21,997 nucleotides of DNA from a virus. The stretch lies in IMG/VR virus record IMGVR_UViG_3300032294_001787, positions 1-21,997 of that record. The stretch is one strand, 5' to 3'. The position numbers were made by a program, and so were the translations under genes. Shown in pieces: positions 9,917 through 20,882 of the stretch (the first letter of the stretch is position 1; every line of letters starts with the position of its first letter). The notes beneath the pieces were generated by a model. It had not been told where the DNA came from. It did no database searches and worked only from the letters and a program-made list of their open reading frames with translations.

Positions 9917-10533
9917 ATTTACTTAAAAGTTTATTTCCAAAAGGATCTCCTTGGAATTTATTAGGAGAATTCGGAAAACTTATAAATGGAATAGGAACGT
10001 CAATTAATAGAGTTTATACGTATGCACAAGAAACTTTAGCGGAATCGAATCCGAGTACTACAACGGATTTATTACAAAATTGGTTTGATGCTTTAGGAAT
10101 AAAAAACGAACCTAATTTAAGTTTGGATGAAAAACGTAGAATATTAAATACTAATTATATTGGGACAGGTGGACAGTCTAAGGAATATATTCAAAATCAA
10201 ATACAAAAAGTATTTCCAAATATAATAATTGAAGAATATATTTTTCCAGTTTTATCTATGGTAGGATATGGAGTCAGTGGAATTATGCAAGTATCAAATT
10301 ATCCATCATGGATTCCAGTTCAATACCAAGATAATACTTATCCTGTATATTTATACAAAGTAACAGGAACAGTTTCAAACGTAACACAATTTTTAATATT
10401 ACAAGATTTAATAAAAAGATACGCTCCATTGACTCATATTCCAGTTTACGTAAATATAAACTTTTTTAGTAATACGGGTATGGTAGGCGTAGGACAAACA
10501 GGAATTAGTGAAGTGGGAAGGAATCAAACATGA
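9907..10533 (+). CDS. Baseplate/tail protein (Mu gp48, DUF2313-like)
   Basis: A 208-residue protein in the slot of Mu gp48 (P2 gpI analogue, DUF2313/YmfQ family). Family-like segments are the opening LLKSLFPKGSPWNL, the helix GKLINGIGTSINRVYTYAQE, TTTDLLQNWFDALGI and LSLDEKRRILNTNYI followed by GGQSKEYIQNQIQKVFP. These proteins bridge baseplate wedge and tail fibre. The gene starts inside the baseplate J gene (10-base overlap) and ends in an ATGA overlap with the tail fibre gene. Confidence 0.8.
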   Translation: MVINLLKSLFPKGSPWNLLGEFGKLINGIGTSINRVYTYAQETLAESNPSTTTDLLQNWFDALGIKNEPNLSLDEKRRILNTNYIGTGGQSKEYIQNQIQKVFPNIIIEEYIFPVLSMVGYGVSGIMQVSNYPSWIPVQYQDNTYPVYLYKVTGTVSNVTQFLILQDLIKRYAPLTHIPVYVNINFFSNTGMVGVGQTGISEVGRNQT

Positions 10534-11507
10534 GAAGAATAAATAGTTTAGGTAGCGTAGGAAATAATTTTGTAGATTATGACGCGAATACGAATCCACA
10601 GGGAACCGTAATTAATGCGGCTTATTTGAACGATGTTCAAAACGAATTAATTGGAATACAATTAGATGCGAGTGTGGCAGAAGCTCCCGGGACAGATTAC
10701 CAAATATTAAAACTTATAAAATTTAATGCGATAAAATATTCAAAAAATATAGGCGAGTATTTTTGGCTGGAAGAAAATAAAAGTCCCAGTGCTTTCACTT
10801 TAGCAACCCCAGACAATTTTTTTCCAGCAATTAATTTAAGTAAAATAAATGTAAATTCAGATATTACAACTTCAAACTATCCTTTATTAGTACCGTATCT
10901 CAGGGCATTGAAATTGAAATACCTAGATGGAACAGGTAGCGAAGTAAATTCATGGACGGCTACCATATCGGGTTCAAATATTCAAATGCCAACTTCGACA
11001 AGTTCGGACGCAATACTTGCCAGTTTAGCGGAAGACGTTTTGGTTCATGGTAGTTATACAAATTTCAGAACTATTACAGTAAACGGTGTAGAGTTTCCGA
11101 TTACAAATATAAACACAGCGACAAGGGTTATTACAGTAACAGGCACACCAACGGCAGGATCTCAAACTGTAGAATTTTTTCAGTATCGTATTACAGGATC
11201 TACTACAAGTGCAAGACTTTTTGAAATTAAAGGAAGAAGTTTTATTTCTCCAAACGATTCAAGCGGACGACACCAAAACGGTTTACGTGTTAGAGATAGA
11301 TTTCAAGGGCATTGGCATACTGTTGTAAATGTAACTGGAACTGGAGGGGGACAATGGACATCTGGAGGGTCTGGAGCAACTAATGGCATAAATGTAAATC
11401 CAATAGCTGACAATTTATCAAACGGCACACCAAGAACAGGCCAAACAACTCACGGTGCAGGTATTTCGGCTCATATATATATATGGGCAAGATCATACAT
11501 AGCATAA
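10530..11507 (+). CDS. Tail fibre protein with collar-like C-terminus
   Basis: A 325-residue protein that follows the last baseplate gene. The N-terminus (SLGSVGNNFVDYDANTNPQG, TVINAAYLNDVQNELIGI) is a typical baseplate-anchoring segment of short tail fibres. A beta-rich middle follows. The C-terminal ~90 residues are Gly, Ser and His-rich (FQGHWHTVVNVTGTGGG, THGAGISAHIYIWARSYI), like receptor-binding tips of the tail collar/gp12 type, where histidines can bind metal. It is short for a fibre, so a further fibre gene may exist elsewhere. The likely role is host recognition. The ATG overlaps the gp48-like stop as ATGA. Confidence 0.75.
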   Translation: MRRINSLGSVGNNFVDYDANTNPQGTVINAAYLNDVQNELIGIQLDASVAEAPGTDYQILKLIKFNAIKYSKNIGEYFWLEENKSPSAFTLATPDNFFPAINLSKINVNSDITTSNYPLLVPYLRALKLKYLDGTGSEVNSWTATISGSNIQMPTSTSSDAILASLAEDVLVHGSYTNFRTITVNGVEFPITNINTATRVITVTGTPTAGSQTVEFFQYRITGSTTSARLFEIKGRSFISPNDSSGRHQNGLRVRDRFQGHWHTVVNVTGTGGGQWTSGGSGATNGINVNPIADNLSNGTPRTGQTTHGAGISAHIYIWARSYIA

Positions 11508-13444: not shown

Positions 13445-14548
13445 TTATTTTACCTTTCTGTAATACAGTCTTTTAAATTTTGATACGTTTACTAAATTAT
13501 TTTCAATTACTTGTTTGTAAATCTCAGGTGCTTTTTCTTCCAAAGTCTTAAGACTCAAAGATTTCCTTTCAGATTCCGAGCATGTAACTAATACGTCTCC
13601 CTCTGGTGTTTGAATCCTTGAATTTTCTCCCATAAGGATACCGATTGAATTTTGTATTTCATCCAATTCTTTTTCAATTTCGCTTGCTTGCTTACTAAGT
13701 TCTTCCCTTCTTTTTAAAATTGTTTCAAGTGAAATATCATTTTTGATTGAATAGCTTTTTTGTAATACGACTGCATTTTCAATTGTTTTTGGATATAGTC
13801 TTTGAACGTCTTCCCATGTTAAGGGTTGAGGAGGTATATTTTCCGATAAATGCCCTTTAAATCCATTTACCATTTTGGTAATGCTTTCTATGGTAATTTC
13901 ATCATAATATTTTTTATTATTTGAAATATATTCTCTATAATCAGAGGTATCAATAAGACATGATACACCAAGAGAAATATTATTTTTTTGTATTTCATAA
14001 CACTTGCAATACACATGCAATTGAAATTGAGTTTGCATATATACCGACAAGGGCAATCCATTTAAACTTGTATCACTACTAGAATATCCGTACTCATTGT
14101 TTTCATCCCTTTTTGAAGAATATAATCTTAATGATTTAGCTTCCTGAATATGATATTTTTTGTTAGGTAACTTTATAAATAAATCAGCATGAGCAATATT
14201 TTTTATTCCAAAAAATCCTTCATATTCTGCTTTTGTATTTGAATAAAATTCATATCCATCGGCTTTAAATTTATTTTTACCTGTAAGACGTTTTACTAAC
14301 CATTTATTGGCTATTTCTTCATTGCATAAATTTTTTATGTATCTATGTAAAATATTTAATTCGTGTCTATGTCCCCAGTATGTCGATTCGTTACCCTGAA
14401 AAGGCTCTGAGATACCTTTTTTTTCTTCATATAATTTTAAAGGCGTTTGACCGTATTTTACATTTAAACCTGCAATCGTAGGAACGTCACTTGACCCGAT
14501 AGCGTTTTTACGTTCTCCATGAAAATCTTCTATGAATTTTATTTTCAT
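13445..14548 (-). CDS. YqaJ-type viral recombinase exonuclease (lambda-exo-like)
   Basis: A 367-residue PD-(D/E)XK nuclease. The opening IGSSDVPTIAGLN...GQTPLKLYEEKKG is the YqaJ-family signature. The helix with STYWGHRHE (around residues 55-63) supplies a catalytic Glu, HADLFI holds D122, and HIQEAKS holds E136 and K138; QTQFQLHVY (172-180) is the usual Gln-containing helix. These enzymes digest one strand of duplex DNA to make the ssDNA used by RecT. The C-terminal 90 residues include a coiled-coil-like KRREELSKQASEIEKELDEI. The ATG overlaps the PC4-like gene as ATGA and the gene lies just upstream of RecT, as in Bacillus YqaJ-YqaK. It is somewhat longer than lambda Exo. Confidence 0.9.
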   Translation of the reverse strand: MKIKFIEDFHGERKNAIGSSDVPTIAGLNVKYGQTPLKLYEEKKGISEPFQGNESTYWGHRHELNILHRYIKNLCNEEIANKWLVKRLTGKNKFKADGYEFYSNTKAEYEGFFGIKNIAHADLFIKLPNKKYHIQEAKSLRLYSSKRDENNEYGYSSSDTSLNGLPLSVYMQTQFQLHVYCKCYEIQKNNISLGVSCLIDTSDYREYISNNKKYYDEITIESITKMVNGFKGHLSENIPPQPLTWEDVQRLYPKTIENAVVLQKSYSIKNDISLETILKRREELSKQASEIEKELDEIQNSIGILMGENSRIQTPEGDVLVTCSESERKSLSLKTLEEKAPEIYKQVIENNLVNVSKFKRLYYRKVK

Positions 14549-14739
14549 AATTGTATCTCGCTAATTTGTCTTACAAACTCATTCCATAACTCTGGTTTTA
14601 TCGAAATTCCATCTTTGCTAGGAAACCATTCCGAACCGTCTTTTGTGTACCATTTTCGAATACCTATAAACTCATATCCTTTGTATTCTGCTTTTTCGAT
14701 ACGTATTTCATTCGTATCATTGATTTTTATTTTATTCAT
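14545..14739 (-). CDS. PC4/YdbC-like ssDNA-binding protein
   Basis: A 64-residue protein with the pattern of the PC4/p15 coactivator family known in bacteria and phages as YdbC: two strands (IRIEKAEYKGYEFIGIRKWY), then TKDGSEWFPSKDGISIKPEL and the closing helix WNEFVRQI. PC4-like proteins bind ssDNA as dimers. Its place immediately upstream of, and coupled (ATGA) to, the exonuclease and then RecT suggests that it protects or organises ssDNA for recombination or replication, in place of a classic SSB, which is not visible here. A good ribosome binding site, AGGGAG, lies about 10 bases before the ATG. Confidence 0.75.
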   Translation of the reverse strand: MNKIKINDTNEIRIEKAEYKGYEFIGIRKWYTKDGSEWFPSKDGISIKPELWNEFVRQISEIQL

Positions 14740-14797
14740 TTTATTATTCTCCCTATTTGAAATCCTATAAAAATTATATTTATAGCAACTGAAAATG

Positions 14798-14878
14798 TTA
14801 TACCAAATCGGAATTTTTCATACCGCAACCGTAAGCTAATATTAAAATACCTAAGTAAAGTAAATCTTTAAATTTCAT
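14798..14878 (-). CDS. 26-residue lipopeptide-like ORF coupled to the DUF1566 gene
   Basis: The ATG at 14878 overlaps the TGA of the DUF1566 gene as ATGA. The ORF runs to TAA at 14800-14798. It begins with MKFKD, then a hydrophobic core (LLYLGILILAYGC), then a short polar tail (GMKNSDLV). The ILAYGC part looks like a loose lipobox with a cysteine at the right distance from a positively charged N-terminus, so a tiny lipoprotein, or a small membrane peptide, is possible. Colicin-type lysis proteins and Rz1-like spanins are short lipoproteins, but the size and lack of a proline-rich tail argue against a firm call. Short length means chance cannot be excluded; the coupling and pattern support it. 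Confidence 0.45.
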   Translation of the reverse strand: MKFKDLLYLGILILAYGCGMKNSDLV

Positions 14879-15192
14879 AACAACCTCTGGATTAATTTTA
14901 CACCTCTTACACAACGCACATAGTATCTGAGAGTCTTATAGCTGTAGTACACGTACCCGAGGGCGAAATTCACGCCCCATGCAGAGTCCGTACCCTGTGC
15001 ATACGTACTCGAACTCCAATAATAGTCAGACTTAAATCCTTGAATATTATTATCATAAGCATCTATTAGTTCCGCCCTTGTCGGTAATCGCCAACCTTCA
15101 CCTAATGACTTAGCGTATTCCATTGCTTCATACCAATTAAGACTCGTATCACCATCCCAATTTTGCCATTCTAATTTTGTTTTATTTTTCAT
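14875..15192 (-). CDS. DUF1566 / Lcl C-terminal-domain protein, possible hypervariable C-lectin fold
   Basis: A 105-residue protein that is essentially one DUF1566 domain: LEWQNWDGDTSLNWYEAMEY, GEGWRLPTRAELIDAY, DYYWSSSTYA, AWGVNFALGYVYY and RYYVRCVRG. These domains usually occur in secreted or surface proteins and have a C-type-lectin-like fold; here there is no signal peptide. The stretch for residues about 62-91 is coded by a strikingly GC-rich segment (about 60% in 14941-15000, 36 of 60 bases) with many NNC codons, unlike all neighbours. It overlaps the helicase gene by 11 bases and the tiny ORF downstream by 4. In phages such domains can be targets of diversity-generating retroelements; no reverse transcriptase is in the window. 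Role unknown. Confidence 0.75.
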   Translation of the reverse strand: MKNKTKLEWQNWDGDTSLNWYEAMEYAKSLGEGWRLPTRAELIDAYDNNIQGFKSDYYWSSSTYAQGTDSAWGVNFALGYVYYSYKTLRYYVRCVRGVKLIQRLL

Positions 15193-16624
15193 TTTTAACC
15201 TTCTCCCATACGATTTCTGTCCATCCGATTTTATATCCTAAAATTTCTCTTAACTTATCCAATTCACTTTTTCCGTTTTCTTTATTTGCTAATTTGTATG
15301 CCGTTGACCATAATAGTTTTTGTTTCAATTCTTTTGTATCACTTGCAATTGCTTTTAATGCAACTTCAAAAAGGTCAGAATCTAAATCAGGGAAATCGGC
15401 TCTTAATTTTCCTTCTAAAACTCTTATATCAATTTTCTTTTTTTCTATTTCTTGCTTAGTAAAATCGAAATTGCAATTCAAACACTTTGACGGTTTCCCT
15501 TCCCATACTGAGTAACATTTAGGACATTCCGTAATACTTGGTTTTGATTTCTTAGAATCTCTTTTTTTTGAGTCTAAACTCCATTCTCTATTTTGTAATA
15601 CGTGACCATGTATAAGGGAATTTCCAGCGTGATCTAAAATAATAGTTTTATCTTTACCGGGATAAGGTCTTAAAGCCCTTCCAATTTGTTGTAAATATAA
15701 ACTTAAACTTAGTGTTTTTCTAAGTAAGATAGCTCCCGCAAGCATGGGAACGTCTACACCTTCGCTTATAACGTCACACGAGGTAAGTATTTGAGTATCA
15801 CCATTCGACAAACCTAGAATGTATTTATCTCTTAATTTATCGTCCATATTTCCATAAACTGCATAAGATTTATAACCTTGATTTGTAAACTGCTCAGCCA
15901 TAAGTTTTGAATGTTCAACCGTAGGACAAAAACAGACAACCGGTAAACCGTCTAAATGTTCTTTGTAGTGTTGTATCACATCTCCTACAATATGCTTTTC
16001 CGAAAGAATAGTTTCTTGTTCTTTTGTATCGAAATCTCCCTTTTTTATTTTAAAACTCTGAGGGATTCCAGGCGGTTTGTAAATTATCGGATAAGATAAA
16101 TATTGATTTTTTACGGCTTCTTTCGTTTGTATTCCAATTATTAAATTATCAAAAAGATTATTCTCTCCTAATCCTCTCCCATCTAATCTTTCAGGTGTGG
16201 CAGTAAATCCGATTCTAGGAACATCGGAATAATAATTTACAATTGATTGCCAAGTATTACCAAGTATATGGTGACATTCATCAATAATAATCAGATCGGG
16301 TTTATTGATTTTATTAAGTCTATTTACAACGGTTCCGACCATACCACACTGGACATTTTCCTTGTAAGACATTATAGAATTTGTTGTTATTTGACCCGCA
16401 TGTATCCCAATATCATACAATTTAATCATTGTTTGACGGTGTATCTCCCTTCTGTGAGTCAAAATAAGAACGTGCTTTTTGTTCTCAGCTGTCATTTTTG
16501 CAATTTGAGCAAATACGACCGTCTTACCTGTTCCCGTAGGTAATACGACACATACTCTTTTCTTGTTTTCCGAAAATGAGTTTCTGACTCTTTGAATTAT
16601 ATCGATCTGGTATTCTCTTAACAT
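15182..16624 (-). CDS. SF2 DEAD/DEAH-box helicase with zinc ribbon
   Basis: A 480-residue helicase of the SSL2/UvsW-like type. Motifs in order: Q-like REYQIDII at the N-terminus, Walker A LPTGTGKT (28-35), DECH (115-118), TATPERLDG (141-149), a second RecA domain with CFCPTVEHS (231-239), the motif V region TSCDVISEGVDVP (281-293), and motif VI QQIGRALRP (312-320). A four-cysteine zinc ribbon follows (CPKC 367-370, CLNC 381-384) and then a helical tail. It probably remodels replication or recombination intermediates, as UvsW does in T4. It lies between the VRR-NUC and DUF1566 genes on the same strand. The GGGATG upstream of the ATG is a fair ribosome binding site. Confidence 0.9.
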   Translation of the reverse strand: MLREYQIDIIQRVRNSFSENKKRVCVVLPTGTGKTVVFAQIAKMTAENKKHVLILTHRREIHRQTMIKLYDIGIHAGQITTNSIMSYKENVQCGMVGTVVNRLNKINKPDLIIIDECHHILGNTWQSIVNYYSDVPRIGFTATPERLDGRGLGENNLFDNLIIGIQTKEAVKNQYLSYPIIYKPPGIPQSFKIKKGDFDTKEQETILSEKHIVGDVIQHYKEHLDGLPVVCFCPTVEHSKLMAEQFTNQGYKSYAVYGNMDDKLRDKYILGLSNGDTQILTSCDVISEGVDVPMLAGAILLRKTLSLSLYLQQIGRALRPYPGKDKTIILDHAGNSLIHGHVLQNREWSLDSKKRDSKKSKPSITECPKCYSVWEGKPSKCLNCNFDFTKQEIEKKKIDIRVLEGKLRADFPDLDSDLFEVALKAIASDTKELKQKLLWSTAYKLANKENGKSELDKLREILGYKIGWTEIVWEKVKNEK

Positions 16625-17846: not shown

Positions 17847-18348
17847 AATATTTACTCTCCTGTATAGTTTTTTGATTTTGATATCTGCCATCGTAATTCG
17901 TAATATCCCCATAAGGAATGTAATACGAAATTTGACATATTTCCATGTTCGGATAAATAATAACGGGTTGAACTACAAATATTTCTAATGTCCATCTTCC
18001 TTTAAATCCCATGTCTCCAAACCCAGCTGTAATATGAACCGAAATACCAAGTCTTCCAATAGAAGATCGACCGTCTATTTTTGGGACAAGATTATAGGTC
18101 TCAGTATATTCATTCGTTGAGCCGAGATACAAAATATTAGGCTCTAATACTAATCCGTGTTTTGGTATCTCGATTGTATCCGTTTTTAGTCTTTTGGGAT
18201 CTAATAAATGATTTTTATATTTTTTTAATTCAGGAAATAAAGTCAAATTATACGAATTAGGATTTAATTTCTTAGGATCGAAAGGGTCGATTTTTATATC
18301 GTCCCCTTCGTGCCAACGTCTTAAGATTTCCTGACCTGTTAAAATCAT
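17839..18348 (-). CDS. dcd: dCTP deaminase / dUTPase-family protein
   Basis: A 169-residue protein with clear Dcd features: LNPNSYNLTL near residues 28-37, LEPNILYLGSTNEY, the GRSSIGRLGISVHITAGFGD core (93-112), and WTLEIFV with E122 corresponding to the catalytic Glu of dCTP deaminase. The end ICQISYYIPYG plus YDGRYQNQ closes the trimer-type fold. It deaminates dCTP to dUTP, or in bifunctional types on to dUMP; the sequence alone does not separate these. Phages use it to supply dUMP for thymidylate. It is coupled by ATGA to the large fusion gene upstream. Confidence 0.9.
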   Translation of the reverse strand: MILTGQEILRRWHEGDDIKIDPFDPKKLNPNSYNLTLFPELKKYKNHLLDPKRLKTDTIEIPKHGLVLEPNILYLGSTNEYTETYNLVPKIDGRSSIGRLGISVHITAGFGDMGFKGRWTLEIFVVQPVIIYPNMEICQISYYIPYGDITNYDGRYQNQKTIQESKYFE

Positions 18349-20882
18349 GCTATTTTTTCCATCTCAAACAATGTCGGTGCGGTTATGTTTTCAACTATTG
18401 ATTTATTGTAAAAAATTGAATCCTTGTAATACTCTGAATTTAATTCTATTCCTAAACCTTTTCTATTCATTAAAACAGATTTGTAGGTAGTACTACCTAA
18501 ACCGTTAAAAGGATCCAAAACAATTTCATCTTTCATTGAATATCTATCTATAAGTCTTTCTATAATGTCCAATTGTAAAGGGCAGATATGTTTTTCTTTC
18601 TTGGCAGATACTTGCCTGGCATTTAAAGTATTCATTCTGTTTACGTCCGTCCATACTAAATCATTATTAGAGTGAACCGGTAAAGTTTGATACGTCGAGG
18701 AAAGTCTTTCTAAATTATCTAAATCTTTACAAATTTCTAAATGTTCCTTATAACTGTAAATAGCTTTTTTGTTATGTTTTTTCCATCGAGATACGATTTC
18801 TTTTACGGAATACTTTCCGAGTTCTTCAAAACTTAAAAGCCTATCCCCGTTCGATCTGTAATACGCATGAGCATCTAATTGCCATTGTGCCTTAGAATAC
18901 TCATCTTTTGTTTTTATTACAGGTGTATCACTATAAGAATTATCATTCGATGAAGGAGGCTTTCTGAAAATCAAAACATATTCAGGTAAACCAACTCCCA
19001 TTTTAGAACCGTCTTTTCTTTGCTCTGTCCATCCCAGTCTATAAGTCTGATTATTTTCAGCCACAACGTCGGTCGTAATAGTAATTTTACCTATTAAAAA
19101 AAATCCATGTTTTTCAAAACTCATAACCGTTTGACCTGAAAAATCTGAGATAGTAGTAAAAGAAGTTCCATTTTGATATGAGTATCTTATTCGATCTTTG
19201 ACGTGAATGCATGCTATTCTACCAGGTTGCAATACTCTATAAAGGTTAGGTATTAAATAATCCATCTGTTCAAAGAATTTACCGTTTCCGTGATTATGAC
19301 CAAAATCATTGTAATTATCCGAATATTCATAATGGTCTCCGAACGGAATTGAAGTTAAAATTAAATTTACAGAATCATTTTTAAATTCGTTAGTATCCTG
19401 CAGTGCAATTACATTGTCATTGTTATACAGACTTACTAATCCTTCTCCAAGTATCACTTTGTTATTGTTTTTGAATATTTGTCTTTCCATCTGGCTTTTA
19501 ATTATCTCCTTATTTAACCCATACTTTTTAACTAATTCGATCATCTGAAAATTTAGTTCTTTGTGATTTTTCCATTTTTCTTTTATTGTTTTCATAATTT
19601 CAGTTTCGGCAACTGTATAAATTATATGAACATTTACTTGTTTTTTTTGTCCAAAACGATACTGCCTATGTATAGCTTGGATAAAATCATTAAACTTATA
19701 ATCTATACCACAGAATATCATATCACTTGAAGCATCTTGAAAGTTACATCCTGACCCGGCTATTTCAGGTTTTGTAAGTAAATATTTATATTTACCTTCT
19801 GAAAATTCTATAATATTTCTTTCCTTAAGATCGTTTTTTTGGCTCCCATAAACAGAAACATAAGACTCACCTTTTAAAGTTTTTTCTAGTAAATATCTTT
19901 CGGCTTCTAAGTTATGCCAAAGTATCACGTTGCCTTCTATTTCCTTTGCAATCTCAATAGACTTTTCAATCCTATTGTAAATCGAATCTCTCTTTTCTCT
20001 CGATACTTCTATAAGCCCAGACTTAGTTATGTTTTTTATTAAAATCCTTTCTCCAAACTTGTCATACAATTCTTTTTTGGTATTGGTAGAAATTACATGT
20101 TCAATGATATTTAATTTTGGCAAATCGTATCCTTTAGAATTATAACCATAATCAGCAGGCGTATTTATGAAAGCCGCCCATGTGGAAACCCATTGCCAAA
20201 ACTCTTCTTTTTTATTGTCATACAATTTTAGATTTCCAGCTTTTTGAGAATCTCTTTTAAAAAACCTTGTCAAAGCGTGACCCCTGGAAATAACTCCTAA
20301 GAAATCGGCATAATTTAAAATCTCTATGTAATCGTTAGGAGTAGGGGTAGCGGTCGCAACTATTCTGTATTGCAAATTTTTAAAATGATTTAAAACGTAA
20401 TTTGTTGTTTCGGTTTGCAAATTTCTAATAATAGAAGCCTCGTCCATTGAAACGCCTATAAAATTATTTGCGTCAATGTTTCCCATTCTTACACGTTCAT
20501 AATTTGTAATATAAATCTGAGGAGGTTTATTTTTATCAATAGAATCGGTTTCTTTAATATATTGTATTTCGATTCCAGTATTTAGTTTTATATTATCTCT
20601 TTTAAATTCTCCTGACACACCTAAAGGGCATACAATTAAAAAACTTTTATTATAAGTTTTTATTAATTGCTTAGCTATTTCTAATTGCATAAATGTTTTA
20701 CCTAATCCAAAACTTGCAAAAATAGCTCGTCTTCCGCCTTCTATACAAAAATTTACTATATCTTTTTGGTGCGGATAAAGGTTTTTTGAATATTCTAAAT
20801 TATTTAATAAATCTTTTTTCATTCCAAAACTTTCAGCAACTACAACTTTTTTCTTTAAAAATTCTCCATATTCCATTTTCAT
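18345..20882 (-). CDS. SNF2-type helicase fused to a DNA methyltransferase
   Basis: An 845-residue two-domain protein. Helicase part: LYPHQKDIVNF (35-45), Walker A FGLGKT (58-63), DEAS in SMDEASIIRN (147-150), ATATPTPND (176-184), and QAIHRQYRFGQ (402-412), the SNF2 motif VI. Methyltransferase part: motif IV TSIPFGDHYE (510-519), a helical EYVLIFRKP region near 634-642, and the AdoMet motif I DPFNGLGST (790-798) near the C-terminus with a KHICPLQLDIIERLI helix before it, so the catalytic motif precedes motif I, a beta-class order. The usual motif IV is SPPY/SPPF; here the second position is Ile, an oddity. It may modify phage DNA while translocating along it. The 4-base ATGA junctions on both sides show tight coupling. 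Confidence 0.9.
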   Translation of the reverse strand: MKMEYGEFLKKKVVVAESFGMKKDLLNNLEYSKNLYPHQKDIVNFCIEGGRRAIFASFGLGKTFMQLEIAKQLIKTYNKSFLIVCPLGVSGEFKRDNIKLNTGIEIQYIKETDSIDKNKPPQIYITNYERVRMGNIDANNFIGVSMDEASIIRNLQTETTNYVLNHFKNLQYRIVATATPTPNDYIEILNYADFLGVISRGHALTRFFKRDSQKAGNLKLYDNKKEEFWQWVSTWAAFINTPADYGYNSKGYDLPKLNIIEHVISTNTKKELYDKFGERILIKNITKSGLIEVSREKRDSIYNRIEKSIEIAKEIEGNVILWHNLEAERYLLEKTLKGESYVSVYGSQKNDLKERNIIEFSEGKYKYLLTKPEIAGSGCNFQDASSDMIFCGIDYKFNDFIQAIHRQYRFGQKKQVNVHIIYTVAETEIMKTIKEKWKNHKELNFQMIELVKKYGLNKEIIKSQMERQIFKNNNKVILGEGLVSLYNNDNVIALQDTNEFKNDSVNLILTSIPFGDHYEYSDNYNDFGHNHGNGKFFEQMDYLIPNLYRVLQPGRIACIHVKDRIRYSYQNGTSFTTISDFSGQTVMSFEKHGFFLIGKITITTDVVAENNQTYRLGWTEQRKDGSKMGVGLPEYVLIFRKPPSSNDNSYSDTPVIKTKDEYSKAQWQLDAHAYYRSNGDRLLSFEELGKYSVKEIVSRWKKHNKKAIYSYKEHLEICKDLDNLERLSSTYQTLPVHSNNDLVWTDVNRMNTLNARQVSAKKEKHICPLQLDIIERLIDRYSMKDEIVLDPFNGLGSTTYKSVLMNRKGLGIELNSEYYKDSIFYNKSIVENITAPTLFEMEKIA

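Follow-up and report, generated by a model that had tools for sequence, protein, structure and literature searches.

A phage recombination-module lectin gene is probably an orphan or remote target of a diversity-generating retroelement

Mtd of Bordetella phage BPP-1, a tail-fibre protein, is encoded beside its own reverse transcriptase (RT) and template repeat. Other targets of diversity-generating retroelements (DGRs) stand apart from both: isolates of Treponema denticola keep targets without RT and template (PMC4891356), and remote variable proteins, within one genome, are known from cyanobacteria (PMC7517822). A metagenomic DGR survey itself states that remote targets without an adjacent RT are undetectable (PMC8144416). 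The Pfam domain reported to be most frequent among DGR targets is DUF1566 (PMC6642488). Here, we analyze a stand-alone gene of this family (PF07603; E = 1.2e-18 in a Pfam profile search) within 21,997 bases of the virus record IMGVR_UViG_3300032294_001787, a stretch that we refer to as the window. We consider it likely, with a probability of about 0.85, that a DGR-type variable region makes up the 3′ third of this gene and that the gene is an orphan or remote target.

The original prediction, made from the letters alone, assigned the gene to DUF1566 and proposed that an islet of 36 G or C in 60 bases, heavy in codons ending in C (NNC) and set in surroundings of about one third GC, was a diversity-generating variable region. 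The family assignment is borne out by the profile match. On recounting, no other 60-base stretch of the record, which averages 32.1% GC, exceeds the islet in G+C, and the maximum stays at the same place when stretches of 90 and 120 bases are compared. It lies in the 3′ part of the 105-codon gene, which at its start shares 11 bases with the end of the helicase gene. The codons named in the prediction are present, and codons 73-92 hold 10 NNC codons of 20, against a maximum of 7 and a mean of 2.0 in 6,425 other 20-codon stretches of a phage whose overall third-position C is 10%. Conditional on the encoded residues, the NNC excess of codons 73-90 has P = 1.7e-5, while the lowest P among 6,479 other 18-codon stretches is 6e-4. 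The islet has two causes, template-adenine codons and GC-rich constant codons: when AA is restored at the 13 predicted template-adenine codons (67, 70, 73, 75, 77, 78, 80, 82-85, 88, and 90), the GC of codons 65-90 falls from 54% to 41%, and the constant codons of the segment, at 59% GC, are the source of the remaining excess. Because these constant codons are GC-rich too, we dropped GC content by itself as evidence of adenine mutagenesis. Searches with Rfam and PADLOC contributed no further information on the gene.

A C-lectin-like fold had also been predicted for the product, and structural modeling agrees. The AlphaFold2 model, of moderate confidence (pLDDT 69), is matched best by the C-terminal domain of Legionella Lcl (PDB 8q4e), 29% identical in the structural alignment, and then by many C-type lectins; a sequence search against solved structures also returned 8q4e as its best match. 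Together with the Pfam Lcl_C assignment, the fold search points to the C-type-lectin fold with a C-terminal variable region that is a feature of DGR targets.

A protein search of genome contigs gathered 62 loci with related genes, 29-45% identical, and the loci were compared with themselves for adenine-biased repeats. Clear template/variable pairs were present in eight bacterial loci (L003, L005, L012, L029, L038, L051, L053, and L062); the original prediction had named DUF1566 proteins as known retroelement targets in other systems. As a side observation on record titles, L010 (CAMCYD010000031.1) is titled a Helicobacter pylori PMSS1 MAG, and its assembly of ~2.7 Mb is above what is expected for the species; the title may be wrong. 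The eight templates resemble AWNVNFNNGNVNNNNKSNNNYVRC, and their alignment with the window gene is free of gaps. We defined an AAY column as one with AAC or AAT in at least six of the eight templates, which gave 13 columns, and took as a control 13 columns with AAY in less than a quarter of the templates. At its AAY columns, the window gene reads GGT TCT GGC AAT GCC CTC TAC TAC TAC AGC TAT CTC TAC, that is, NNY in all 13 and NNC in 9, compared with 4/13 and 1/13 at the control columns. Given how the phage usually encodes these residues, nine NNC codons are unexpected (P = 2.2e-5), and no NNC excess occurs at other columns, in codons 1-60, or in codons 95-105. There is strong support for the view that the codons of the segment bear the fingerprint of a DGR variable region. 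Among the 120 homologous stretches compared, the mean NNY at AAY columns is 0.99 where the locus has a template, and the least DGR-like homologues score 0.4-0.75. For 105 homologues no template was found nearby, yet many of these likewise reach 1.0, so the NNY score marks origin rather than activity and cannot tell active targets from old ones.

The putative variable region is bounded by two constant anchors, TATTGGAGTTCGAGTACGTATGC and TACTATGTGCGTTGTGTAAGA, and ends ~9 codons ahead of the stop (Table 1). The borders at 14905-15021 are approximate, since they would be set by the gene's own template. In DGRs, an initiation site and a hairpin adjoin the 3′ end of the variable region; no stable hairpin was found downstream of this one (z = +1.2).

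Table 1. Coordinates of the Lcl_C/DUF1566 gene, its candidate variable region, and the neighboring features
Feature	Position	Strand	Evidence
Stand-alone Lcl_C/DUF1566 gene, 105 aa, intact	14875..15192	-	Pfam; predicted C-type-lectin fold
GC-rich islet	14941..15000	.	36/60 G+C
Putative variable region at the C-terminal end of the gene (codons 58-96)	14905..15021	-	Template columns of eight repeats and L122 comparison
Stretch with 13 inferred template-adenine codons	14923..14994	-	13/13 NNY, 9/13 NNC, P = 2.2e-5 given residues
5′ constant anchor, codons 58-66	14995..15021	-	26/27 bases same as L122
3′ constant anchor TACTATGTGCGTTGTGTAAGA, codons 90-96	14905..14925	-	Identical in L122
Helicase gene, upstream of cassette	15182..16624	-	Protein 78% identical in three syntenic phages
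Small regulator-like gene, downstream of cassette	14545..14739	-	Same place in syntenic phages
Possible remnant of relatives' small membrane-protein gene (weak)	14766..14794	-	Short matches only

The closest relative in the viral scan is L122, the stand-alone Lcl_C gene of IMGVR_UViG_3300008448_000375, with a 60% identical protein. Like the window gene, it has an early-region location, on a 32-kb contig without an RT; unlike the window phage, its carrier is podovirus-like, and no other gene common to the two phages was detected. Across codons 58-96, all but one of the 13 strict AAY codons (12/13) encode another residue, as do 2 of the 26 others (Fisher, 2.8e-7); the looser grouping used at first (15 versus 24 columns) gave 14/15 versus 0/24. 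In bases, the differences amount to 25/45 at AAY columns, 4/72 in constant codons, and 51/153 in the gene body, and the anchors (27 + 21 bases) differ at 1 base of 48. The 21-base 3′ anchor is conserved with L122. The synonymous differences in constant codons, GCA/GCC twice, ACG/ACT, and GTG/GTC, are all compatible with a template A, but taken by itself the contrast in synonymous changes between these codons and the gene body reaches only P = 0.07. Because three AAY codons differ by C/T at the third base, the templates of the two genes would be not quite identical. These data, from one comparison between phages, strongly support the view that the segment varies almost only at predicted template-adenine columns, and they supply the variation among relatives that the original prediction had proposed to look for.

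Fourteen viral records (L122-L135) hold related Lcl_C genes, and 3 of them have an RT of any kind. Several have more than one Lcl_C copy: L125 has three, L132 has five, and L126/L127 are further cases. In several multi-copy records, such as L125 and L132, there are copies with codons resembling those of variable regions. Among the three L125 copies, differences fall at 9-11 of 15 AAY codons, compared with 5-7 of the 24 constant ones, a weaker contrast than that between the window gene and L122. Variable-region cassettes without an RT may be common in phages.

Neither a template repeat nor a match to the RT profile RVT_1 was found in the window, as the original prediction had stated. The nine related records and the L122 record gave no RVT_1 match, and four syntenic phage records, 32-38 kb in length, likewise yielded no RT; the same search detected RTs in 30 of 45 genomes holding related genes. 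Degenerate variable/template patterns had no match in the viral collection. A generic all-AAY pattern did find five other viral templates, which do not fit this segment (24-30 non-adenine mismatches per 100 bases), and no compatible template was found in the viral contigs. A DNA search of ~1,190 genomes from three phyla returned short weak matches only. The nearest template-like match among all sequence fetched (L105:1204-1257) lies beside an RT in G025, a rumen bacterium from Yak reticulum; with 15 non-adenine mismatches per 100 bases, it is no more than a relative. As for the host, the sheath protein had no near match in a 28-genome phylum or in 298 genomes of another phylum, and searches with RecT, terminase, and exonuclease indicated none. 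The window record is a fragment, with perhaps ~16 kb missing, judging by alignment with G002.

A complete DGR in this phage is therefore unsupported, as two defining features fail in the available sequence: a near-identical template repeat is missing from the window, the viral collection, and the sampled genomes (the record being fragmentary), and a DGR-type RT is missing from the window, the nine related records, and the L122 record. A third feature, a variable region changed at template adenines, is seen through proxy templates and L122 rather than through the gene's own template. The proposal of a diversity-generating variable region thus stands as far as the NNY/NNC codons at AAY columns and the variation relative to L122 are concerned; the template and RT expected in phage or host were not found in the window, the related phages, the L122 contig, or the ~1,190 sampled genomes. 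The prediction was to be given up if template and RT were missing and relatives showed no variation as well; the former holds so far, and the latter does not.

The plus strand of the window carries a contractile-tail module (sheath, baseplate, and a tail-fibre-like gene at 10530-11507), and the minus strand carries RecT-like, RecE/YqaJ-like, helicase, dCTP-deaminase-like, and helicase-methyltransferase genes, with the Lcl_C/DUF1566 gene among them. Because of this position, in an opposite-strand recombination/replication module, we rejected an Mtd-like tail-fibre role. The features of Mtd, a gene in the tail block and a variable domain fused to a structural part, are not seen here: the gene is a 105-aa stand-alone one, and its product lacks a tail-fibre part and shows no obvious signal peptide. 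Relatives with a sheath protein 81-96% identical exist, and the DUF1566 gene is absent from all of these sheath-matched phages. The gene is a cassette between the helicase and the small regulator gene; three syntenic phages (G002, G004, and G005) are collinear across the slot and carry there a small gene ending in a membrane segment instead. The short match at 14766-14794 weakly suggests that DUF1566 may have replaced that small gene. Compared between the window and G002, G004, and G005, the slot itself (14740-15192) holds different small genes and may be a gene-swap hot spot. Elsewhere in the module, the 845-aa helicase-methyltransferase (18345-20882) shares 60% identity with a protein from Flavobacterium columnare phage FCL-2; its other matches are few and only 24-29% identical, which suggests exchange of that gene.

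These results are best read as an orphan or remote target of a DGR that belongs to an early/recombination module and not to a tail fibre. An RT would once have copied a template repeat whose AAC/AAT codons encode the tip residues of a C-type lectin; adenines would have been randomized in the copy, and the copy would have replaced the 3′ stretch of the gene. The codon fingerprint and the contrast with L122 argue for such a replacement. They provide strong evidence that the variable region was written by adenine mutagenesis, and they support the view that the segment works, or once worked, like a DGR target; we infer that the responsible RT would lie outside this record. The phage fragment would then carry the target only, with template and RT supplied by the host, a co-resident element, or the missing ~16 kb, or the target would be a fossil. 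The product would be a stand-alone lectin domain binding a putative ligand that changes. Against this reading count the missing template, RT, and downstream hairpin in the searches above, the synonymous contrast with L122 of only P = 0.07, the C/T differences at three AAY codons, the NNY scores of 1.0 in template-less homologues, and the fact that ordinary selection may also change lectin tip residues. A competing view takes this as an ordinary lectin domain with tip residues changing by selection and a GC-rich end that came from a higher-GC donor. The GC-rich constant codons agree with it; however, such a donor would raise C throughout the segment, whereas third-position C and the changes relative to L122 are both confined to AAY columns, and we regard this view as improbable.

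Where the RT would be is less clear-cut, and each sub-case of the remote or orphan target is tentative. An RT and template of the host or a co-resident prophage might rewrite the gene in trans during infection or lysogeny, which is possible: the syntenic records and the unrelated L122 phage lack an RT, yet the two variable regions have nearly identical constant bases, few viral records with related genes have any RT, and remote targets are known. The failure to identify a host, or a compatible template in ~1,190 genomes of three phyla, speaks against it, and the records are fragments. Somewhat doubtful is a DGR of the phage's own in its unsequenced ends, far from the target; the missing ~16 kb leave room for it and other phages have DGRs with Lcl_C-like templates, but the corresponding parts of G002, G004, and G005 are without an RT, though these relatives also lack the target gene. 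It is again possible that the gene was acquired from a genome with a DGR and has remained frozen from then on. The acquisition would be recent on the phage's scale, because the slot holds another gene in relatives, and the T. denticola isolates offer a precedent; codons 1-60, however, sit at the phage's low C (NNC 2/60) next to a C-rich variable region, which would be odd after joint arrival and drift.

The column test recognizes a DGR-type variable region without an RT or template, and its outcome suggests that target cassettes of this kind occur in unrelated phages, away from the tail genes. A rather doubtful extension is that the variable-region lectin cassettes of some phages are portable, have no RT, and are rewritten in trans by a DGR of the host or another resident element; if so, a phage would borrow a mutator to diversify a non-tail protein. 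If an RT elsewhere does rewrite such cassettes, phages would share or borrow mutators, and which early-module contact needs to change becomes a testable question.

Compared with known systems, the window gene has the domain, C-terminal variable region, AAY columns, and NNY/NNC codons of the Lcl_C/DUF1566 DGR targets at L003, L005, L012, and L062; it differs in having no RT or template found nearby and in being a stand-alone domain, very short, within the early/recombination module of a phage. The orphan and remote targets in T. denticola (PMC4891356) and cyanobacteria (PMC7517822) likewise have no RT nearby, but they lie on bacterial chromosomes, and the species are known to have related templates, whereas ours is a phage gene with no known template. 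Finally, like the gene for BPP-1 Mtd (PMC8144416), it encodes a phage protein with a variable C-type-lectin tip at its C-terminal end, and it differs from Mtd in not being a tail fibre and in having no RT or template of its own beside the gene.
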